A stretch of 64,000 bases of DNA, taken from NCBI RefSeq assembly GCF_001427785.1, contig NZ_LMHM01000016.1, positions 211,231-275,230 of the forward strand, read 5' to 3'. Source of the DNA: Lysobacter sp. Root690. GTDB taxonomy: Bacteria; Pseudomonadota; Gammaproteobacteria; Xanthomonadales; Xanthomonadaceae. Numbering within the stretch: position 1 is the first letter of the stretch; every line of letters starts with the position of its first letter. The notes under the pieces are model-generated. The model saw only the letters and a list, made by a program, of their open reading frames with translations. It was not told the origin of the DNA and made no database searches. Shown one piece after another: positions 8,481 to 49,400 of the stretch. The translations under genes were made by a program, and so were the position numbers.

Positions 8481-9851
8481 TCATTCGTCCGTGGGCAGGG
8501 GCGACAGACGTTCGCGCACCAGCGCGTCGACGTGGTCCCAGTCGAGCGTGTCCAGGCGTTCGTGGCCGGCGGTCAGTTCGACCAGCAACTCGCGCTGGCG
8601 CTGGCCGCGTTCGAACGCGACCTCGTACGGCATGCGGTGAAAGGTCACCATCGCGTAACGCGGCATGAAGCGTTCGGGGTGGCGCTGGGCGAGTTCGTGC
8701 TCCAGTGCGCGCTGCAGCAGGTAGTCGTCGTTGTCGACGCGGTCGCGCATTTCCAGATAGTTTTCCAGCGCCATCGCCTGGATAGCGCGGGTACTGGGCA
8801 GGCGTTGTTGCTGGAATGCGGCGAATGCATCGGCGCGGTCGTTGCCGGCGAGCAAATGCTCGGCCAGGGCAATGCAGTCCTCGAACGCGCAGTTCATGCC
8901 CTGGCCGTGGAACGGCACCATCGCGTGCGCGGCGTCACCGAGCAGCACCGCGCGATCGTCCAGATGCCAGCGGTCCAGGTACAAGGTCGCCAGCAGACCG
9001 GCCGGGTTGTGTTCGAAATCGTGTTCCAGGTTCGGAATCAACGGCAGCGCATCGGCGAAGTCGCGTTCGAACAAGGCGCGCGCGTCGGCGCCGTCGCGGA
9101 CGGTCTGGAAACTCGGATCGCCTTCGTTGGGCAGGAACAAGGTGACGGTGAAGGTGCGTTCGTCGTTCGGCAGCGCGATGCACATATAACGGCCGCGCGG
9201 CCAGATATGCAGCGCATTGGGTTCGATGCTGAAACCGCCGTCGGGCGAGGGCGGGATTTCCAGTTCCTTGTAGGAATGGCCAAGGAACTCGGTGCGCTCG
9301 CCCAGATCGGTCGCCTGCTTCATCGCTCCACGCAGCGCCGAGCCCGCGCCGTCGGCGCCGACCAGGCTGTCGAAGACGATTTCGTGTGTGCCGCCATCGC
9401 GATCGTCGACGAAGCGGGCGATGCGCTGGTCGAAATCGACCTCGCTCAGGCCGCGATGGAAATGCAGCCTGGCCCCGGCGTCTTCGGCGATCTGCAGCAG
9501 GATCAGGTTCAACTCGCCGCGATGCACCGACCAGATGACCTCGCTGTCGTCGCGGCCGTAGCGCTGCAGATCGGTGCGTCCGTCGAGAAAATGCACCATG
9601 CGCCCGCGCATCATCACCGCCTGCGCCATCACCGCCTCGTCCGCGCCGGCCAGACGCAGTGCGTGGCGGCCGCGCTCGGCCAGGGCGAGGTTGATCGAAC
9701 GCCCGCCCTGATAGCCCTGCAGGCGCGGATCGCCGCGTTTCTCGTACACGTCGACCTGCCAGCCGCGCCGCGCGAGCAGGGTGGCGAGCAGGGCGCCGGC
9801 CAGGCCCGCGCCGATGAGGGTGATGTGCTTGGGGTGGGTGGGTGCGTTCAA
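8481..9851 (-). CDS. kmo: Kynurenine 3-monooxygenase
   Basis: 456 residues. An FAD- and NADPH-dependent hydroxylase that converts L-kynurenine to 3-hydroxykynurenine. The N-terminal dinucleotide fold has GAGLAG at residues 14-19. The family loop GYQGGRSINLALAERG and the second FAD motif GDAAHAMVPFHGQGMNCAFEDC are clear. The C-terminal tail contains two aromatic and basic helices, as in other bacterial KMOs. It is the last pathway gene of the leftward kynurenine operon. The 564 bases between it and kynU hold a GIY-YIG gene and palindromic repeats, so it may be transcribed partly on its own. Confidence 0.95.
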   Translation of the reverse strand: MNAPTHPKHITLIGAGLAGALLATLLARRGWQVDVYEKRGDPRLQGYQGGRSINLALAERGRHALRLAGADEAVMAQAVMMRGRMVHFLDGRTDLQRYGRDDSEVIWSVHRGELNLILLQIAEDAGARLHFHRGLSEVDFDQRIARFVDDRDGGTHEIVFDSLVGADGAGSALRGAMKQATDLGERTEFLGHSYKELEIPPSPDGGFSIEPNALHIWPRGRYMCIALPNDERTFTVTLFLPNEGDPSFQTVRDGADARALFERDFADALPLIPNLEHDFEHNPAGLLATLYLDRWHLDDRAVLLGDAAHAMVPFHGQGMNCAFEDCIALAEHLLAGNDRADAFAAFQQQRLPSTRAIQAMALENYLEMRDRVDNDDYLLQRALEHELAQRHPERFMPRYAMVTFHRMPYEVAFERGQRQRELLVELTAGHERLDTLDWDHVDALVRERLSPLPTDE

Positions 9852-9928
9852 GGAATGGAGTCTCTGGTCGCGACTATAAACTTACTGCAAGAAATCATGG
9901 GCTGAGCGGCAACGAAGCCCCCGAAATC

Positions 9929-9964
9929 GTCATTCCCGCGAAGGCGGGAATCCAGAGACTTCAG
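9929..9964. repeat. REP-like palindrome, family B
   Basis: The palindrome TTCCCGCGAAGGCGGGAA followed by TCCAGAGACTTC. Further copies are at 10272-10301, 10331-10358, 33022-33048 and 33100-33134. This copy lies between kmo and the GIY-YIG gene. Confidence 0.8.
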
Positions 9965-9996
9965 CGTATCGCCACGATGTCGTTCCACAAGTCCCG

Positions 9997-10260
9997 TCAT
10001 TCCGGATTGGTCTGCTCGATCAGCCGAATCTTCCATTCGCGATTCCATTTCTTCAGGCGTTTCTCGCGCAGGATCGCGCTTTCCATGGTTTCGTGCATTT
10101 CGTACCACACTAGCCGGTCCACGTCGTAACGATCGGTGAAGCCCGCCGTCAAGTGTTCCCGATGTTGCCACACTCGTTGAATCAAGTCGGAGGTGACGCC
10201 GGTGTACAAGGTGCCGCGTTTGGCGCTGGCGAGCAGGTAAACGGCGGGCGATCTCGACAC
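9997..10260 (-). CDS. Small GIY-YIG endonuclease (UPF0213-like)
   Basis: 87 residues, a stand-alone GIY-YIG domain like YhbQ/UPF0213. AVYLLAS forms the GIY strand and LYTGVTSDLIQRVWQH carries the YIG motif and the catalytic Arg. YEMHETMESAILREKRLKKW is the usual middle segment with the conserved Glu, and WNREWKIRLIE ends the domain. It probably nicks DNA. I start it at a GTG at 10260 with GAGG five bases upstream. A longer reading from 10335 would translate a palindromic repeat into the N-terminus and is unlikely. It sits between repeats on both sides inside the kynurenine gene run. Confidence 0.8.
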   Translation of the reverse strand: MSRSPAVYLLASAKRGTLYTGVTSDLIQRVWQHREHLTAGFTDRYDVDRLVWYEMHETMESAILREKRLKKWNREWKIRLIEQTNPE

Positions 10261-10271
10261 ATCGGCCTCAC

Positions 10272-10358
10272 TCTGGATTCCCGCCTTCGCGGGAATGACG
10301 ACCTGAAAGTAATGCGTCTCTCCAGTTTTCAACACTCCCGCCTTGGCGGGAATGACGG
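10272..10358. repeat. Two REP-like palindromes, family B
   Basis: Two copies of the ATTCCCGCC...GGCGGGAAT palindrome, at 10272-10301 and 10331-10358, both oriented opposite to the copy at 9929-9964. With that copy they bracket the GIY-YIG gene. Confidence 0.8.
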
Positions 10359-10415
10359 TTTGGAGTTACGTGGTTGTCGGATGTTCTATATTCATGGAGG
10401 TGACATTGTTGAGGA

Positions 10416-11702
10416 TCACGCGGCCCGCCAACCCTCAACCGCCGCCACAAACCTCGACACATCCCCATGCGTGTTATAGAGCGGTGCAGGCGAAATCCGG
10501 ATTACATCCGGTTCGCGCCAATCGCCCAGCACGCCGTTGCGCGCCAAGTAATCGAACAGATCGCGCCCCGCCGCGCGGCCGCTGAGACCACGACCGCCGA
10601 TCACCCGCAACGACAGCTGGCAACCGCGCTGGCCCGGATCGGCCGGGGTCACGATGTCCAAGGTATCGGCCAGACGCGCGCGGATCAGCGTTTCCAGGTA
10701 ACCGGTCAGGCGCAGGGATTTTTCGCGCAGGGCGCGCATGCCGACGCGGTCGAACAGGTCCAACGAGGCGCGCAGCGGCGCCAAGCCGAGGATCGGCGGG
10801 TTGCTCAGTTGCCAGCCTTCCGCGCCTGGGGTCGGCACGAATTGCGGCCCCATGCGGAACCGGGTCGTCGCTTCGTGCCCCCACCAGCCGGCGAAACGCG
10901 GCAGCTCGCTGCGTGCGTGACGGTCGTGAACAAAGCAGCCGGCGACCGCGCCGGGGCCGGAGTTCAGATATTTGTAATGGCACCAGACCGCGAAATCGAC
11001 GCCGCTGTCGTGCAGGCCCAGTTCCAGATTGCCCACGCCATGCGCCAGATCGAACCCGCACACCGCGCCCTGCGCATGCGCCAGCCGCACGATTGCGTCG
11101 AGGTCGAAGGCCTGACCGCTGCGGTACTGCACGCCGGGCCACAGCACCAGGGCCAGGCGCGGGCCGTATTCGGCGATCGCGCGCTCGATGCTCGCCATCG
11201 AGATCAACCCGCCAGGTTCATCGGGCTCGATCTCGATCAGATCGGTGTCGGGATCGAAGCCATGGAAGGCGATCTGCGACGCCACCGCATAACGATCGGA
11301 CGGAAACGAACCGGCCTCAATCAGGATCGCCGGCCGTTCGCGGGTGGGGCGGTAGAAGCTGACCATCATCAAATGCAGATTCGCGGTCAGCGAGTTCATC
11401 GCGATCACTTCGCTCGGCAGCGCGCCGACCAGCCGCGCCAGCGGTTCGCGCACGAGTTCGTGGTACGGCATCCACTGCGCCTGGCCGGTGAAATGGCCTT
11501 CGACCGCTTCCATCGCCCACTTGTCCAGCACTTCCTCGACATGCGCGCGTGCGCCGCGCGGTTGCAGGCCGAGCGAGTTGCCGACGAAGTACGCCTGCTC
11601 TTCATCTGCGTGGCGTGGGATCAGGAACTCCGCGCGCAGCGTCGGCAAGGGATCGGCCGCATCGAGGGCGGCGGCGTGAGCGGGTGAGTGCAATTCGGTC
11701 AT
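10416..11702 (-). CDS. kynU: Kynureninase
   Basis: 428 residues. A PLP enzyme that cleaves 3-hydroxykynurenine (and kynurenine) to 3-hydroxyanthranilate (or anthranilate) plus alanine. Class V aminotransferase fold: FVGNSLGLQPRG near the N-terminus, MNSLTANLHLMM for the cofactor phosphate, LVLWPGVQYRSGQ, FDLAHGVGN with the PLP-pairing Asp, and HYKYLNSGPG with the Schiff-base Lys at about residue 244. It is full length. It belongs to the leftward operon, 82 bases after the unknown 134-residue gene. Confidence 0.96.
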   Translation of the reverse strand: MTELHSPAHAAALDAADPLPTLRAEFLIPRHADEEQAYFVGNSLGLQPRGARAHVEEVLDKWAMEAVEGHFTGQAQWMPYHELVREPLARLVGALPSEVIAMNSLTANLHLMMVSFYRPTRERPAILIEAGSFPSDRYAVASQIAFHGFDPDTDLIEIEPDEPGGLISMASIERAIAEYGPRLALVLWPGVQYRSGQAFDLDAIVRLAHAQGAVCGFDLAHGVGNLELGLHDSGVDFAVWCHYKYLNSGPGAVAGCFVHDRHARSELPRFAGWWGHEATTRFRMGPQFVPTPGAEGWQLSNPPILGLAPLRASLDLFDRVGMRALREKSLRLTGYLETLIRARLADTLDIVTPADPGQRGCQLSLRVIGGRGLSGRAAGRDLFDYLARNGVLGDWREPDVIRISPAPLYNTHGDVSRFVAAVEGWRAA

Positions 11703-42181: not shown

Positions 42182-42704
42182 CGGCGAGTTGGTTCGAGTC
42201 GCACACCTGCGCCGCGCTGAGCGGCGCGGGCAGGCCCAGGGCGGTGTGAAGTTCGCCGGCGTTGGCCATTCTCGATCAGGTCGCCGCTGGCGAGATATTG
42301 CCGTCGAGATATAGCCGCGGAATCGCTAGCCACTCGCGTCGGCGCTCGCTGCCGCGGCCTAGCTTGAGATCGGCGCCGGCATCAACCTGCGCATGGTCCA
42401 GGCCGATATCGTCGAGCAACCCGCACAGCCTGAGCGAAAGACCGCAGCGCAATGTGGCCGGCGCCCCATTCGTGAGCAGCACCAAGCGATGCCTGGGCGC
42501 AGTGCATCGATGCGCTGGCGCGTTGAGGTAGACAGGTTCGGATGAGACACGGCCGCGTCCTTCGTTCGGCTCGCGCGGACTTTATCGCAATGCCTCGCCG
42601 CGGCCGAGTCCTCGGCCGGGCCGCTGTCGGGATTGGCGCCACGCCGCGGAAACATGGATCATTCGGCGAGTGCCCAAGGCCGGGCCGCCGCGGATGCTGA
42701 GCGC
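42182..42704. other. Gap after dnaB
   Basis: 523 bases with no supported gene. Several open frames on both strands are short, Arg-rich and lack ribosome sites. It may be remnant or regulatory DNA at the left boundary of the stretch separating dnaB from alr. No repeat or T-run hairpin seen. Confidence 0.5.
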
Positions 42705-43376
42705 ATGACGATCGTCGACAATGCCGCTTACGAATGGCGCGTCTACAACGCCAAGGCGATTCACCGCCTGGAGAATGCGCGTGGCCGGAACGAGTCTCTC
42801 ATCAAGGGCCGGATCTTCGGCCTGCGCCAGGCCGGGTCGAAGAAAGGCGTCTATCGCCTGATCGTGCGCGAATTGGGCCCGCGCCTGGTGTTTTCCCTGT
42901 CCGAACAGGATGTGCTCGGCCTGCTCAAGAAAAGCAGCCCGCTGGCGGAGGCTTCGCCGCATTCGCATCCGAGGGCGAAAACGCTGCGGTCGCGCCTGCA
43001 AAAGACCGACCCCAAGGATTTCTGGGCGGTGGTCGCGGCGCTGAACTGGCCGAAATTCGCTCAGGACGCCGACTACGCCGACACGGTCAGATCGGTCCTG
43101 CGCGAATGCTATCGGCTGCAGGACGTAAACCGACTGCTGCGCACCGCCGTGCGCAAGCGGCGCGAGCTGCAACGCGCGGTGGAGAAGGCGGAAAAAGCCG
43201 CGCGGCGCCAGTTGTTTCTCGGTGGCGACGACAGTCTCTACGACGCCCTGGCGTATGCGGTTTCCAGTGGTCAGGCGCGTTTCGAAGGATTCTTGCTCAA
43301 GCCGGAATCCTTCGTGAAGAAATTCAACGCGCTGCCGATGGAGCAACAGAATTTCGAGTATTGCTTCGAGGAATGA
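42705..43376 (+). CDS. Unknown protein, weakly DUF4240-like
   Basis: 223 residues from the ATG at 42705; earlier in-frame ATGs at 42633 and 42654 are possible. It is basic, soluble and mostly helical. The N-terminal third contains a beta stretch (KGRIFGLRQAG, VYRLIVRELGPRLVFSL). The C-terminal part, with DFWAVVAALNW early and DDSLYDALAYAVSSGQARFEGFLLKPESF late, resembles the order of motifs in DUF4240 proteins, but I hold this loosely. It lies 412 bases upstream of the RiPP locus in the same direction, and nothing shows that it belongs to it. Confidence 0.62.
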   Translation: MTIVDNAAYEWRVYNAKAIHRLENARGRNESLIKGRIFGLRQAGSKKGVYRLIVRELGPRLVFSLSEQDVLGLLKKSSPLAEASPHSHPRAKTLRSRLQKTDPKDFWAVVAALNWPKFAQDADYADTVRSVLRECYRLQDVNRLLRTAVRKRRELQRAVEKAEKAARRQLFLGGDDSLYDALAYAVSSGQARFEGFLLKPESFVKKFNALPMEQQNFEYCFEE

Positions 43377-43788: not shown

Positions 43789-45306
43789 ATGAAAGATCTG
43801 ATCGAGCAAGTCGACGCCAATCTGCAGGCTCACGAAGAATTCGGAAATTCGCGACAGATCATCGCGCTCAATATCGAACGCTATAAATTCGCCCTGGCGG
43901 TGCTCGCGCGGAACGACGCGAAACTGCAGGCCTTGTTGCCGCAGGTCGAGCAATGGGATCAGCCGCTCGCTAACAAGATCCTCGGCGATCTGTTGGTCCG
44001 GGCCGAACTCGAAGCGGCCATCGAATGCCTGGAAACCGATGCTTCGGCGACTCAGGACACGCAACGTCTGGTGTGGTGCCTGGAGCGCAGCCTGGCCATC
44101 GCAGACGGAACCAGAAGCCTGTCCGCGGGCGCGATGGAACGCGATTTTCAGGTTGGGCCGGAGATCGACGGCAGGCGGATCTGGGTCTGGGACCTTGCCG
44201 ATGGATCCGAACCGGTGGCCGATGCGCTGCGTGAGGCGCTACGACTGGGGTTCATGCCCGGCGGGCATTGCGAGGCGCAGATCATCCGGCCGACGCCGGA
44301 AATGGTTCGGCAACTCGACCGCGCCTGCAACTTGCTGCAGGCGCTGGCACCGCAGGTCGCGCACAGCGTGTTCTCGCACCTGCATTCGGCCGTGATCGCG
44401 CACATGCGCAACGAACGCGGGCCGATGCTCACCGCCTCCGGCGGCGATTCCACGCCATGCATGATCTTCATCGCGCCGGAGGAGCTGGCCAATCCCTGGG
44501 ACACGGCCGTTCACATCATGCACGAAGCGGTGCATCTGAAATTGTCGGACATGGTGCGCACCAGCGCGGCGGTCGTCGACGAGGCGATGGTGACCTTGCC
44601 GTGGGGCCGGGAGATCACGGTATCGAATTGCCTGTTCGCATTTCACGCCTACGTGCATCTGCAGGTGTTCCGCACCGCGGTCGAACAACTGGGGCCGCGG
44701 TACTACGCGGACTACGGCGCACCGGAATCGTATCTGGCCAACACGCGTCCGCATGCGATGTCGGTGGTCAACACCGCCGCGACCACGCCGTTCTCGCGCG
44801 GCCATCAGCGCATGATCTACCTGGGCGAGCAGTTCAGGACCACCTGGGCGTCGTACCTGACCCCGGCCGCGCGCCGCATGGTCGATTGGTTGTGTGAAGC
44901 GATCGGTCCGATGGTCGACATGCGTATCGAACGGCCCGACGAGGCGCGGGCCGCAGGCGAGGCGCAGGCCGCTACCGCGCCGGCACCGACGATCCGCTAC
45001 ACGAAGAATCCCAAGCTGCATCTGCGCCCGCTGAAAGAGCACGGCATCCTGTTCGCGTCGGTGATCGAACAGCCGCAGATCCGCAAGCTCAACACCGCCG
45101 CTTGGCTGATGTTCGAGTTGTGCGACGGCCGCAACGAGCGCGACCTGGCCCAGGCCTATGCGCAGATCACCGGCGTCGCCGAGGATCGCGCCTGGCAGAA
45201 GATCGAACCGATGCTGGAGCATCTTGTCGCCAGCGGCATGATCGTGCCGATCGACGACGTAGCGATCGACGACGCGACGACGGTGCGTGAAGGCAGGGCG
45301 GCATGA
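43789..45306 (+). CDS. HExxH peptide-modifying enzyme fused to PqqD domain
   Basis: 505 residues in two parts. Residues 1 to about 390 form a HExxH-motif domain: ASGGDSTPCMIFIAPEELANPWD leads into HEAVH at residues 245-249, then FHAYVHLQVF and RPHAMSVVN. This is the pattern of the HEXXH modification family found in RiPP clusters, where it is also fused to radical SAM enzymes. I recall that some members are iron and 2-oxoglutarate dependent hydroxylases rather than peptidases. Residues about 405-495 are a PqqD-like precursor-recognition domain (LNTAAWLMFELCDGRNERD). It heads the operon. AGGG lies ahead of the ATG. The next gene overlaps by four bases (ATGA). Confidence 0.8.
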   Translation: MKDLIEQVDANLQAHEEFGNSRQIIALNIERYKFALAVLARNDAKLQALLPQVEQWDQPLANKILGDLLVRAELEAAIECLETDASATQDTQRLVWCLERSLAIADGTRSLSAGAMERDFQVGPEIDGRRIWVWDLADGSEPVADALREALRLGFMPGGHCEAQIIRPTPEMVRQLDRACNLLQALAPQVAHSVFSHLHSAVIAHMRNERGPMLTASGGDSTPCMIFIAPEELANPWDTAVHIMHEAVHLKLSDMVRTSAAVVDEAMVTLPWGREITVSNCLFAFHAYVHLQVFRTAVEQLGPRYYADYGAPESYLANTRPHAMSVVNTAATTPFSRGHQRMIYLGEQFRTTWASYLTPAARRMVDWLCEAIGPMVDMRIERPDEARAAGEAQAATAPAPTIRYTKNPKLHLRPLKEHGILFASVIEQPQIRKLNTAAWLMFELCDGRNERDLAQAYAQITGVAEDRAWQKIEPMLEHLVASGMIVPIDDVAIDDATTVREGRAA

Positions 45307-46466
45307 GCACGACCGCGAAGGTCGTCGCCACCGCCGATCGGATCCTGTCCGAGCATCCGAACTTCGGCGATTCCAATCGGATCCTGGCCAAGGTGTACGC
45401 GCGCTATCGGTTCGGCGCGGAACTGTTCGCCGAGCGCTTGCCCGGGGTCGCGGCGACGCTTGAGCGCCTGGACACGATGCCCGACGCCGACGTGCGGCGC
45501 ATCTTCTTCGATCCGCTGGTTCGTCTGGCGACCGAAGATGCCTTCACCGAGTTGGAAACCGGGCAACTGGCATCGCCGCATCGGCTCGAAGATCTGTTGC
45601 CGAAGGCGATCGCCGCGTTGCCGTCGGGCCTGTGCCAGTCGCATATGCTGGCGCGTTGGGATCTGAGTTCGGACGAACGCCATTGGATGTGGGCGATCGC
45701 CGGCAGTTCCGATCCATACGCAGCGCAGTTGCAGACCGCGTTCGACGGCATTTTCTCGGCCAGCCCGGCCAACCGCGGCACCTTGCTCAATCCCGATGCC
45801 GTCGCGCAATCCAAGGTGCAGGACGCGATCGCGCTGTTGTCGATGCTGTTGCCGAACGCCGGCGCCGCGGCGCTGCGTCATGTCGGCGCCATCGCGCTGC
45901 TGGATGCGCAGCTCGAGGGCGGCATCGTGCTGTCCGCCGCGGGCGGCGATCTGACGCCGTCGACCGTGTTCATTTCGCTCGAGCAACTCGGCAACCCCTG
46001 GGACATCGCCGGCTGCCTGCTGCACGAAGGCCTGCACATGAAGCTGTTCGATGCGGCGCGTTCGGTCTCGCTGGCAAAGGCTCCGGAGGAAACCATCCAG
46101 GTGCCGTGGCGCAACGTGCGTTGGTCGATCGTGCGGGCGATCTTCGCCTATCACGTCTACGTGCACCTGTCCTTGTTCAAGGCCGCGGCGCTGTGCGCGG
46201 ACAAGCGCAGCTTCGAGCTGTTCGGCGATCCGTCGGCGTACGTGATCCGGCCGCATGCGATGTCGGTGGTCAACAACGACACCGCCGCGCAGTACGGCCG
46301 CTCCATCGACCGCGCCCGCTATCTGGGCCACATGTTGCAGACGCAGTGGTCGCCGCTGCTGTCGGCCGGCGGGATCGACTTCGTGGGGTGGCTCAAGAGC
46401 TCGCTCGACCCGGTCGACGAGGCGGTGTTCAGCGAGGCGCCGGAGGCTCTATGCGCGACGAATTGA
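45303..46466 (+). CDS. Second HExxH peptide-modifying enzyme
   Basis: 387 residues, a paralog of the first protein's HExxH part. Shared landmarks in the same order are SAAGGDLTPSTVFISLEQLG, NPWDIAG, HEGLH at residues 241-245, FAYHVYVHLSLFK and RPHAMSVVNND. It lacks the PqqD domain, which is encoded by the next gene in another frame. It starts on an ATGA overlap with the first gene, so the two are made together. It may modify a different residue of the precursor or form a complex with the first enzyme. No signal peptide, so it acts in the cytoplasm. Confidence 0.78.
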   Translation: MSTTAKVVATADRILSEHPNFGDSNRILAKVYARYRFGAELFAERLPGVAATLERLDTMPDADVRRIFFDPLVRLATEDAFTELETGQLASPHRLEDLLPKAIAALPSGLCQSHMLARWDLSSDERHWMWAIAGSSDPYAAQLQTAFDGIFSASPANRGTLLNPDAVAQSKVQDAIALLSMLLPNAGAAALRHVGAIALLDAQLEGGIVLSAAGGDLTPSTVFISLEQLGNPWDIAGCLLHEGLHMKLFDAARSVSLAKAPEETIQVPWRNVRWSIVRAIFAYHVYVHLSLFKAAALCADKRSFELFGDPSAYVIRPHAMSVVNNDTAAQYGRSIDRARYLGHMLQTQWSPLLSAGGIDFVGWLKSSLDPVDEAVFSEAPEALCATN

Positions 46467-46738
46467 CGGTGCGCAAGGCGAGTGGATTGCGCTCGCGTCC
46501 GGTGCCGCAGGCCGATTGCCTGATGGTGTTCTCGCCGCAGTCGGGAAAGATCCACTGGCTCGGTCTCAACACCTGGCTGGTGTTCGAGCTGTGCGACGGC
46601 CGCACGGTCGAGCAAGTGGAGCGCGGCTATGCCGAACTCGCCGGCGACAAGTTGAACGAAGACGGCGCGCGCCGACAGGCGCAGCGCGGACTCGAATCGT
46701 TGCTGGGCAGCCGGCTGATCGAAGCCGCGCCTGCGTGA
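46451..46738 (+). CDS. Free PqqD-like RiPP recognition protein
   Basis: 95 residues. It matches the PqqD fold in length and layout: LTVRKASGLRSRPVP, FSPQSGKIHWLGLNTWLVFE, CDGRTVEQVERGYAELAG and a closing helix. The words LNTWLVFELCDGR nearly repeat LNTAAWLMFELCDGR of the first protein's C-terminus, so the two domains are related by duplication. PqqD domains bind leader peptides of RiPP precursors and present them to modifying enzymes. GGAGG sits four bases before the ATG. The first 16 bases overlap the end of the second HExxH gene in a different frame. Confidence 0.82.
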   Translation: MRDELTVRKASGLRSRPVPQADCLMVFSPQSGKIHWLGLNTWLVFELCDGRTVEQVERGYAELAGDKLNEDGARRQAQRGLESLLGSRLIEAAPA

Positions 46739-46755
46739 CGGACGAGCCGGCCTGA

Positions 46756-46786
46756 AGCAGAACAGTCATGCAGCAGAACAGTCATG
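46756..46786. repeat. 15-bp direct repeat before the precursor gene
   Basis: AGCAGAACAGTCATG occurs at 46756-46770 and again at 46772-46786, with one base between. It lies just after the PqqD stop and about 80 bases before the precursor start. It may be a local slip duplication or a binding site pair. Confidence 0.8.
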
Positions 46787-46863
46787 GAGCAGGGGAGTCA
46801 GCCGACACGGATGTCGCGACCGTAGCAAAGCAAGCAGTACTTCCACCACAGAGGAGATAGTTC

Positions 46864-47016
46864 ATGAACAATGAATCAACTTGCCTGGAGACGCTGAAGA
46901 GCCTCCTGAGCAACAAGAAGACTCTAGAAGAATCGGAAGTGACCACCGGCTCCGCCGATGAACGTCGCTGGTGGCCTCCGTACAGCGTTGCGCCGACCCA
47001 GGCGGCGAGTTCCTAG
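46864..47016 (+). CDS. Candidate RiPP precursor peptide, 50 residues
   Basis: A short gene between the PqqD gene and the methyltransferase gene. GAGGAG lies seven bases before the ATG, one of the best ribosome sites in the window. The likely leader (residues 1-31) starts MNNESTCLETLKSLLSNKK and can form an amphipathic helix with LETLKSLL, suited to binding a PqqD domain. The likely core (about 32-50) is DERRWWPPYSVAPTQAASS, with Trp36, Trp37, Pro38, Pro39 and Tyr40. Placing, size, leader-core contrast and the terminator right after it all fit a precursor. The cleavage site is not obvious; GS-A at 29-31 is one option. No homolog comes to mind. Confidence 0.8.
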   Translation: MNNESTCLETLKSLLSNKKTLEESEVTTGSADERRWWPPYSVAPTQAASS

Positions 47017-47027
47017 GTAACGGGGAT

Positions 47028-47067
47028 CTGCCGCGCTCGCAACCACGAGTGCGGCAGGTTTTCTTCT
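47028..47067 (+). terminator. Strong hairpin terminator after the precursor gene
   Basis: A 12-bp stem (arms CTGCCGCGCTCG at 47028-47039 and CGAGTGCGGCAG at 47046-47057, with one G-T pair) closes a 6-base loop and is followed by GTTTTCTTCT. It begins 11 bases after the precursor stop and lies before the methyltransferase start. This should make a short, abundant precursor mRNA and lower read-through to the methyltransferase. Confidence 0.88.
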
Positions 47068-47086
47068 GCTTGCAAGGACTGGCGAT

Positions 47087-47935
47087 TTGAGCGCTCCGCC
47101 GACCGTGGGCGAGATATGGCGCCCCTTGAACGACAGCGACAAGGCCGTCGTGGTAGTGCGATGCTCGGACGCAACGATCGACTACGCTTGGCTGGACGGC
47201 GAGTCCGACTGCGACGGCAGCGCCCCGGCCGCGCAGTGGCATTCGCGGTTCGCGATCGTGCTGGAACAGTCGGATCACGCCCACGCGACGCCGGTGCGGC
47301 GCCGGCATCTGATCGACGACTGCGCGGCATGGTTGCGCGGCAAGTCGGTACTGGAACTCGGCGCGCATACCGGCGGGCTGACCGAATCGATCCTCGGCTA
47401 CGCCGCTTCTGTCACCGCCCTGGAAAACAACCCGCGCTGCGTCGCCCATCTGCGCGGGAAATTCGGTGATCGTGTGGAGGTCGTCGAAGGCGATATGCAC
47501 CACGAGCTGTGGCGGATCGAACCGCATCGCTTCGATGTGGTGGTCTGCGCGGGCGTGCTGTATCACTCCGCGCATCCGTTCCTGTTGCTCGAGGCGATGG
47601 CCCATCTCGCGCCGCAGCGGATCCTGATCGACACCTTGAACCATGGGGTCGACGAGCTGCGGGTGGTGGTGCCGCACATGATCAACAGCTGCAATTACCG
47701 CTACAACCAACGTCCCGACTGCGGTTTCTCGCTGGTGCTCGGCGATCGGCTTATCGAGCAGGCGATGGCGACCCTGGGCTATGCGCAGCGAGTGCCGGTG
47801 GACAAGCGATCGGCGACGATCGCGCCCAAACTCGACAGCGCATATTTCCGCGAATGGAAAAACAGCTACGCTGCGTGGTTCCATCGGCCGGGTTTCGCTC
47901 CAGCCGATGCGCAAGCCGAGTCGCTGCTGGAATGA
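47087..47935 (+). CDS. Class I SAM-dependent methyltransferase
   Basis: 282 residues from a TTG start with AAGGA about nine bases upstream. The SAM motif VLELGAHTGGLTESILGYA (about residues 88-106) is followed by VTALENNPRC, an acidic VEVVEGDMH and FDVVVCAGVLYHSAHPF, a typical Rossmann methyltransferase with a UbiE/Methyltransf_23-like active loop. No membrane segment. In this setting it may methylate the modified peptide, at a hydroxyl, the C-terminus or a side chain, which is inference. It converges with the FAD oxidoreductase gene, with 10 bases between their ends. Confidence 0.82.
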   Translation: MSAPPTVGEIWRPLNDSDKAVVVVRCSDATIDYAWLDGESDCDGSAPAAQWHSRFAIVLEQSDHAHATPVRRRHLIDDCAAWLRGKSVLELGAHTGGLTESILGYAASVTALENNPRCVAHLRGKFGDRVEVVEGDMHHELWRIEPHRFDVVVCAGVLYHSAHPFLLLEAMAHLAPQRILIDTLNHGVDELRVVVPHMINSCNYRYNQRPDCGFSLVLGDRLIEQAMATLGYAQRVPVDKRSATIAPKLDSAYFREWKNSYAAWFHRPGFAPADAQAESLLE

Positions 47936-47945
47936 CGAGGTGTTG

Positions 47946-49400
47946 TCAGGCCCAGGTCTGACGAACCTGCGCGTAATAGTCGCGGAAAAACGGGACCATC
48001 CTCGCGCGATCGCTGGCGACGATCGCCAGCAGCTCCGGCGGCAACACATATTCGTCCTCGCCCAGGTCCTCGTACAGGCCATTGAGCATCTGCTCGTAGA
48101 AACGCGGAAAAGCCTGATGCCAGCCGACCCGCGGCAAACGGATACCGTGTTCCGAGCCCATCGCGAGGTAGTGCTTGAGCGCTTCGGCGCGGGCCTGCTC
48201 CTGGGTGTACAGGCGGATCGGCTTGCGCTCGGGCCGGAAGGTTTCTTCGAACAGTCCCGCTCCGCCGCAGACGCGGTCGGCCATGTGCTGGGCGAGTAAC
48301 GGCGACAGGAACAGGCCGTCGCGGTAGGTGCCGGTCAGCAGCCACAGACCCTCGACCGAGGTCGGACCGATCAGCGGACAGGTGTCGATCGCGACCGGCC
48401 GATTGCCCGCTTGCCAAGTCACGAGCTGCGCCGCGCACAGGTCCTGATCGAGCTGATCCAGCGCGCATTCGAGCAGGAAGAACATATCGGCGGGCGAGGT
48501 CCGCAGCATCGGTTGCGCGAACAAGGTATTGGTCGCGCCGATATAGAGCTGGCGGCCGCCGCGCGGCACCGCGTGCAGTCCGCAGGCGAAGGCGCGGTTG
48601 GGCGTGCGCAATACGTGTTGCTGCGCGGTCGCCGTCGCGGTTTCCAGCACCAGCGAGGTTCCGCCGCCGGAGAACAGGCGCGGGATGCGCCGCGCCAGAT
48701 CGGGGTGCGCGTCGAGAATCGTCTGGGTCCACACGCCGGCCGCCAGCACCACCTGCGGGGCCGACACCACGCTGTCGTCTTGAAGCCGCACGCCCTTGAT
48801 CTGACCGCCCTGAATGTCGAGCGCCTTCACCGTGGCGTCGACGAAACTCAAGTTCGCCGAGCGCTCGATCAGCGTGGTCATCGCCTGCAGCAGCCTGGCG
48901 GCGTCGATCGAGCCTTCGCCGGGCAGGAACAGTGCGCGCGAGGGGCGGCAATCCTCCGCCGGGTTCAGGCCGGGGATGCGGTTGGGATCGAGTTCTTCCC
49001 AGGCCTCGCCGCTTTCGCGCAGGGCCTGCTGGATGGCGGCATAGTTTTCGTCTTCGATGGTGCCGGACTTGGCGTTGCTGAAGACCACCGTGCCCGGCGT
49101 CATCGATACCCGCTCGGTTTCGGCCAGTTCGACGTTGATGCCATCCAGCCAGTCCGGCCAATGCCGCGTCGCGAGCTTGCCTTTCGCCAGCTTGGCCCGG
49201 CCCGCATCGGTGCGCAGCAATTGCGCGGTGACTTCGCCGTAGCAGCCCATCATCGCGCCCGCGGCCGCCGAGGCCGCGCCGCCGCGCCCGATCGGGCCGA
49301 TCACCGCCACACGCAAGCGCGGGTCGCGCAATTGCAAGGCGCGCGCGGTCGCCATGCCGAGCACTCCGTTGCCTGCTACTACGACGTCATAAGTCGACAT
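47946..49400 (-). CDS. FAD-dependent oxidoreductase, DAO family
   Basis: 484 residues. The N-terminal VVVAGNGVLGMATARAL is the FAD dinucleotide motif (G-N-G-V-L-G) and VVLAAGVWTQTIL is the second FAD segment of the D-amino-acid oxidase family. The middle has substrate-domain sequences such as GGGTSLVLET. GTYRDGLFLSPLLAQHMAD near residues 363-381 matches the flavin end motif, as in glycine oxidase ThiO-like proteins. A C-terminal extension of about 90 residues (from about 395) is unusual. Substrate unknown. It converges on the RiPP methyltransferase gene, so it may be part of that locus or just a neighbour. Confidence 0.8.
   Translation of the reverse strand: MSTYDVVVAGNGVLGMATARALQLRDPRLRVAVIGPIGRGGAASAAAGAMMGCYGEVTAQLLRTDAGRAKLAKGKLATRHWPDWLDGINVELAETERVSMTPGTVVFSNAKSGTIEDENYAAIQQALRESGEAWEELDPNRIPGLNPAEDCRPSRALFLPGEGSIDAARLLQAMTTLIERSANLSFVDATVKALDIQGGQIKGVRLQDDSVVSAPQVVLAAGVWTQTILDAHPDLARRIPRLFSGGGTSLVLETATATAQQHVLRTPNRAFACGLHAVPRGGRQLYIGATNTLFAQPMLRTSPADMFFLLECALDQLDQDLCAAQLVTWQAGNRPVAIDTCPLIGPTSVEGLWLLTGTYRDGLFLSPLLAQHMADRVCGGAGLFEETFRPERKPIRLYTQEQARAEALKHYLAMGSEHGIRLPRVGWHQAFPRFYEQMLNGLYEDLGEDEYVLPPELLAIVASDRARMVPFFRDYYAQVRQTWA

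Follow-up and report, generated by a model that had tools for sequence, protein, structure and literature searches.

What product is made by a short bacterial locus that encodes two HExxH proteins, PqqD-like domains and a 50-amino-acid peptide, and no radical S-adenosylmethionine (SAM) enzyme? We analyzed such a locus in Lysobacter sp. Root690 (GCF_001427785.1, contig NZ_LMHM01000016.1, positions 211,231-275,230, forward strand); all positions below refer to this 64,000-nucleotide stretch, the window. The genes are, in order, HP1 (an HExxH protein with a C-terminal PqqD domain), H2 (a second HExxH protein), a gene for a free PqqD-like protein, the peptide gene with a hairpin behind it, a methyltransferase gene and, on the opposite strand, a gene for a flavin adenine dinucleotide (FAD) enzyme. 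We propose, with a probability of about 0.55, that these six genes encode a pathway for a ribosomally synthesized and post-translationally modified peptide (RiPP), in which the 50-amino-acid precursor would be hydroxylated by the HExxH proteins, methylated, and capped at its N-terminus by the FAD enzyme. The proposal builds on computed results, namely family assignments, conservation, a six-gene unit, catalytic residues, and a related pair of peptide and HExxH-PqqD genes in Streptomyces.

An earlier, sequence-only reading of 43789-47935 had described a RiPP locus lacking radical SAM, YcaO, LanM, transporter and peptidase genes and consisting of an HExxH-PqqD fusion, an HExxH paralog, a free PqqD domain, a peptide gene with an excellent ribosome site, a terminator and a methyltransferase gene. 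All of these were found in that order, the free PqqD as a PqqD-like protein. Its first three genes overlap as it had said, HP1 and H2 by 4 bp, and H2 and the free PqqD-like gene by 16 bp. No radical SAM/SPASM, YcaO or LanM gene was present in the unit, and there was no radical SAM gene between dnaB and alr, which lie on its two sides. The end of the locus at 47935 was drawn too narrowly, since the FAD enzyme gene (47946-49400, minus strand) belongs to the unit.

The evidence for a unit comes from a comparison of 20 Lysobacter species, in which the site was read in all 7 species with HP1 and H2 and in 7 of the species without them. HP1 and H2 were present in 7 of the 20. A full-length ortholog of the FAD enzyme (81-100% identity) was found in 7/7 positive species and in 0/13 negative species (Fisher p = 1.3e-5); the negative species had partial matches of about 30% or none. 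Gene order was identical in every positive species, with dnaB on one side of the six genes and, on the other, a small glycine-zipper gene that is followed by alr. The 7 negative species read at the site had dnaB and alr and none of the six genes. In a single-gene tree of alr, the presence pattern requires at least two changes, and three in the best account, with one negative genome, G205, nested in a positive clade. When G205 was aligned with L. enzymogenes, both flanks aligned around a gap of about 6.3 kb, which begins about 500 bp before HP1 and ends shortly after the FAD enzyme gene, indicating a clean deletion. Because of this joint presence, the shared site and order, and the block deletion in G205, we conclude that the six genes are one unit, gained and lost together. 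The co-distribution and the deletion also rule out the FAD enzyme gene as an unrelated neighbor. As for the neighborhood survey suggested by the sequence-only reading, homologous loci keep the peptide gene, and both the order of the genes and the peptide are preserved in 7 species.

The peptide gene (46864-47016, plus strand; MNNESTCLETLKSLLSNKKTLEESEVTTGSADERRWWPPYSVAPTQAASS) is preceded by an AGGAG ribosome-binding site (46852-46856, plus strand), which the orthologs keep. The 20 residues from L21 to Y40, LEESEVTTGSADERRWWPPY (46924-46983, plus strand), the proposed core region, were unchanged in the orthologs of 7/7 species, while the first 20 residues and the tail varied more. The ratio of nonsynonymous to synonymous substitution rates (dN/dS) was 0.0-0.15 for the peptide, the lowest in the unit, and 0.0-0.47 for the enzymes. 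Because 20 residues are invariant and dN/dS is this low despite a dS of about 1 between clades, these comparisons indicate that the peptide is a real precursor, constrained at the amino-acid level. Across 297 genomes of the family, a peptide profile matched in Lysobacter alone. A peptide profile found nothing in relatives of G553, in a search without a positive control, and the Lysobacter peptide had no plasmid matches. The hairpin 3′ of the gene (47022-47063, plus strand) has a fold z-score of -5.9 and is followed by T-rich sequence; 12 bp of its stem are paired in 7/7 species, with 2 pairs doubly compensated. It may act as a terminator or attenuator that lets the precursor transcript exceed the methyltransferase transcript.

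For the two HExxH proteins, several lines of evidence point to the same family. HP1 (43789-45306, plus strand; 505 amino acids) carries the motif HEAVH at residues 245-249 (44521-44535), and H2 (45303-46466, plus strand; 387 amino acids, no PqqD domain) carries HEGLH at residues 241-245 (46023-46037), with H241, E242 and H245 in invariant columns. Both passed the cutoff of 40 bits for TIGR04267 (2-oxoglutarate-dependent HExxH peptide beta-hydroxylase; aKG-HExxH), HP1 with 63.4 bits at residues 176-333 and H2 with 61 bits. H245, E246, H249, H286 and H290 of HP1 were invariant across HP1, H2 and the Streptomyces relatives. AlphaFold models, made from shallow alignments of six sequences, had a mean confidence (pLDDT) of 73 for H2 and a modest 64 for HP1. 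In Foldseek searches, the top match of both was 8s5f, the HExxH domain of the 2-oxoglutarate-dependent oxygenase ChlB (E 5e-9 for HP1 and 1e-8 for H2, with a span of 5e-9 to 5e-8 over the model matches; target TM-score 0.61-0.68), and at E ≤ 0.001 the models matched only 8s5f and 22ob (SjiH). With these matches, ordinary metallopeptidases are ruled out as the default explanation. The assignment of HP1 and H2 to the aKG-HExxH family is well supported, and they are predicted to be iron/2-oxoglutarate-dependent hydroxylases. This agrees with the sequence-only reading, which had named them as the primary tailoring enzymes and had proposed the profile search that both pass. Among 369 sampled Gammaproteobacteria, genes like HP1 and H2 were found only in the genome of the window.

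In HP1, the PqqD domain covers residues 427-485 (45067-45243, plus strand) and scored 27.5 bits with Pfam PF05402 against a cutoff of 23.4; it is a predicted RiPP recognition element (RRE) for the leader. The claim of a second PqqD domain held in part: the free PqqD-like protein (46451-46738, plus strand; 95 amino acids) scored 13.3 bits, under the cutoff, yet is homologous to the HP1 domain, aligning over its full length to the PqqD domains of HP1 and its orthologs with 32-39% identity and a common F-E-L-C-D-G-R block. It is kept in 7 Lysobacter species. In a tree, HP1 and H2 were sister paralogs relative to the Streptomyces homologs. Since the Streptomyces relatives carry both domains in one protein, it would be simplest to assume that a fused gene was duplicated and that the second copy is now split into H2 and the overlapping free PqqD-like gene. 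Another PqqD protein of the same genome (57 bits; L021, about 9200-10914, G000:C13) lies near pqqB- and pqqC-like genes and probably belongs to PQQ (pyrroloquinoline quinone) synthesis.

One or both HExxH proteins might instead chiefly cut the peptide backbone, oxidatively or hydrolytically. The HExxH enzymes PflC and PosC cleave oxidatively at ARMD, and PflC hydrolyzes leaderless peptide (PMC12636437). The absence of a protease from the unit would fit such a role, as would the C-terminal tail past PPY, which is variable and has Ala or small residues. The published members, however, also hydroxylate side chains (PMC12636437), and no tail motif resembling ARMD occurs in the invariant block; we consider this explanation unlikely.

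The Streptomyces relatives provide a second view of the peptide. A plasmid search found HExxH-PqqD fusions with the same architecture as HP1 (NZ_CP030864, NZ_CP011665; 95% coverage, 28-29% identity). They adjoin genes for an FDLD class I lanthipeptide, LanB, LanC and a sulfotransferase, in clusters annotated as lanthipeptide. Directly upstream of the Streptomyces HExxH-PqqD gene is a 45-amino-acid gene ending in ...RDAAEERAWVPAYWATPAAA, which has A-x-E-R-x-W-x-P-x-Y in common with the Lysobacter peptide. With the Lysobacter peptide profile, the Mg1 peptide ranked first among 1241 open reading frames (ORFs) (E = 0.007). Of 20,000 trials with shuffled peptides, 15 and 4 reached the score of the Lysobacter/Streptomyces alignment. 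No other frame among 1.87 million translated residues contained the pattern [ED]ERxWxPxY. The peptide link is significant but short. It suggests that in Streptomyces the HExxH-PqqD enzyme works with the ERxWxPxY peptide, not with the lanthipeptide, so that HExxH-PqqD genes now assigned to lanthipeptide clusters may serve a separate, unnoticed peptide. In viral contigs, 42 matches to the peptide motif had no gene of the unit nearby and were taken as chance. On a plasmid of Streptomyces sp. ADI95-16 (L137, 6001-6548), an ERxWxPxY-type peptide gene is kept and followed only by a 109-amino-acid ORF, with no HExxH match in the plasmid; the site is perhaps a decayed locus.

The FAD enzyme is a homolog of N-formimidoyl fortimicin A synthase and of Orf1 of BD-12. 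It matched the Orf1 structures 8gri and 7xqa with 330 bits over residues 3-482, against 56 bits for glycine oxidases, and aligned with Orf1 over its full length (475 columns) at 40% identity. Orf1 oxidizes glycine at FAD and, by way of an N-O-S link at C281, passes formimidoyl or iminoacetyl to an amine; C281 and E426 are needed for group transfer and not for glycine oxidation (PMC10156733). C281, H284, Y294, T298, F316, R342, R368 and E426 of Orf1 correspond to C273, H276, Y286, T290, F308, R334, R360 and E417 in the window, all kept in 7/7 orthologs. The glycine site (H276, Y286, R334, R360) and the second, transfer site (C273, with its codon at 48582-48584, minus strand, and E417) are therefore both conserved.

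The FAD enzyme could also act elsewhere, as a glycine or amino-acid oxidase supplying imine or peroxide, or by capping another small molecule, so that the peptide is merely hydroxylated and methylated. It also matches the glycine oxidase ThiO (114.7 bits, under the NCBIfam cutoff), its gene is on the opposite strand, and homologs occur in non-RiPP settings such as beside a non-ribosomal peptide synthetase (NRPS) gene in S. finlayi. Against this, its gene comes and goes together with the other five, and it keeps the equivalents of C281 and E426. The full-length Orf1 match and the second-site residues make a plain ThiO unlikely, and we regard action away from the peptide as improbable.

In the capping pathway that we prefer, the PqqD domains, one fused in HP1 and one free beside H2, would bind the N-terminal leader of the precursor. 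HP1 and H2 would hydroxylate side chains, probably at beta-carbons, in the invariant ...GSADERRWWPPY block, and the methyltransferase would methylate the product. The leader would be removed by a protease encoded elsewhere. The N-terminal amine exposed in this way would be capped by the FAD enzyme, which would oxidize glycine and transfer a formimidoyl group (+27.01 Da) or an iminoacetyl group (+71.00 Da). No precursor has Lys past position 19; once the leader is off, the new N-terminus would therefore be the sole primary amine of the invariant block. Candidate leader-free peptides are, for example, GSADERRWWPPYSVAP and ADERRWWPPYSVAP; speculatively, a cut before Gly29 would yield a glycyl amine resembling the known acceptors. 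Double-glycine (C39) processing at GS was rejected as a poor fit, with Thr at position -4. The methyltransferase (47087-47935, plus strand, start position approximate) belongs to class I, matches Pfam Methyltransf_25 (38.7 bits, 1.6e-9), is kept in 7 species and had no plasmid matches; its co-occurrence suggests that it probably acts on the peptide. The product is probably methylated and, after leader removal, N-capped with formimidoyl or iminoacetyl derived from glycine. We infer the substrates, sites, step order, leader cleavage point and biological role, as well as the action of the FAD enzyme and the methyltransferase on the peptide. The sequence-only reading had proposed hydroxylation followed by methylation; the hydroxylase family stands, methylation has the co-occurrence in its favor, and the scheme was incomplete, missing the sixth gene and its homology to N-formimidoyl/iminoacetyl synthases.

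Several points weigh against this pathway. The unit has no transporter, protease or immunity gene, the free PqqD-like protein falls under the Pfam cutoff, and no Orf1-like gene was found in the Streptomyces stretches read, which implies that only part of the family uses capping. Known acceptors of Orf1-type enzymes are aminoglycosides or streptothricins and not peptides (PMC10156733), and the acceptor residue E312 of Orf1 is Ala in 7/7 FAD enzyme orthologs. E312 recognizes the streptothricin acceptor, and an E312A mutant still formimidoylates glycylthricin (PMC10156733); the Ala thus bears on the acceptor and not on the chemistry. By residue comparison, it is likely that the Orf1 chemistry is kept and the acceptor has changed.

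The lack of an exporter or immunity gene would also fit an intracellular product, a peptide-derived cofactor or metal-binding small molecule that is not secreted. Short precursors and a PqqD-type carrier are also used to make PQQ and mycofactocin. The small precursor, its invariant core including Tyr, the PqqD carriers and an FAD enzyme of the amino-acid oxidase superfamily resemble such systems. But the unit has no radical SAM enzyme of the PqqE or MftC kind, no dedicated oxidoreductase adjoins it to use a cofactor, and its distribution is patchy with clean loss; a cofactor is decidedly unlikely.

The hydroxylation and capping pathway combines features of several known systems. Stand-alone HExxH enzymes in RiPP clusters have been published, as PflC/PosC (PMC12636437) and BpmH (PMC12257519). 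Like the Lysobacter unit, the proteobacterial pfl and pos RiPP clusters contain a stand-alone HExxH enzyme and no genes for radical SAM enzymes or proteases. They differ in having a single HExxH enzyme, a leader of the NHLP type, a fusion of MNIO and nitroreductase, a GNAT protein and transporters, whereas the Lysobacter unit has two HExxH paralogs, PqqD domains, a short non-NHLP precursor, the methyltransferase and the FAD enzyme. The ChlB domain (8s5f) and FxsB-type radical SAM-HExxH proteins have the same fold and HExxH motif, with only 14-16% sequence identity, and the Lysobacter unit lacks their radical SAM enzyme and cyclophane step. BpmH of the biphenomycin cluster is also a stand-alone aKG-HExxH hydroxylase, accompanied by an MNIO, an arginase, a JmjC hydroxylase and a TldD peptidase that the Lysobacter unit lacks. 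Both reaction centers of Orf1 (PMC10156733; 7xqa, 8gri), including the N-O-S cysteine, are kept, in the setting of a ribosomal peptide instead of an aminoglycoside or streptothricin and with Ala at E312. The Streptomyces loci have the same fusion and an adjoining ERxWxPxY peptide, but a single HExxH copy next to LanB, LanC and the sulfotransferase.

In open-licence full texts, where absence is weak evidence, we found no paper meaningfully linking HExxH with Lysobacter and none linking formimidoyl with RiPPs; nor did we find there an earlier description of two HExxH hydroxylases combined with a methyltransferase and a formimidoyl-synthase homolog. Tentatively, and at somewhat less than even odds, ERxWxPxY precursors and HExxH-PqqD enzymes may define a new RiPP class in two phyla, whose Lysobacter branch would be the first ribosomal peptide with a formimidoyl or iminoacetyl cap made by N-O-S chemistry. 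If so, formimidoylation would extend to ribosomal peptides. The young aKG-HExxH family and an unusual kind of capping with glycine-derived groups, familiar from aminoglycoside-type antibiotics, would meet on one tiny encoded peptide, and with its six genes the whole unit is small enough for rebuilding in a laboratory host.

Orf1-like FAD enzymes were also seen on a Pseudomonas syringae plasmid (L120, 4739-7230) beside a 2-oxoglutarate/iron oxygenase and on a Streptomyces finlayi plasmid (L118) beside an NRPS. Because of these neighbors, Orf1-type capping chemistry may be wider than aminoglycosides. A further 15 HExxH-bearing proteobacterial genomes yielded no full-length Orf1-like homolog.

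Between dnaB and HP1, the gene at 42633-43376 encodes a 247-amino-acid protein with weak DUF4240 and KMPT-N matches. It was found in the window's own clade only and was ruled out as a member of the unit. The same genome carries a second, conventional RiPP locus (L019, 6939-11886; G000:C17, about 397938-402886) with a 55-amino-acid GG-leader precursor, an XyeB/FxsB-like radical SAM enzyme (320 bits), a stand-alone HExxH enzyme (82 bits) and a C39-type ATP-binding cassette (ABC) exporter.

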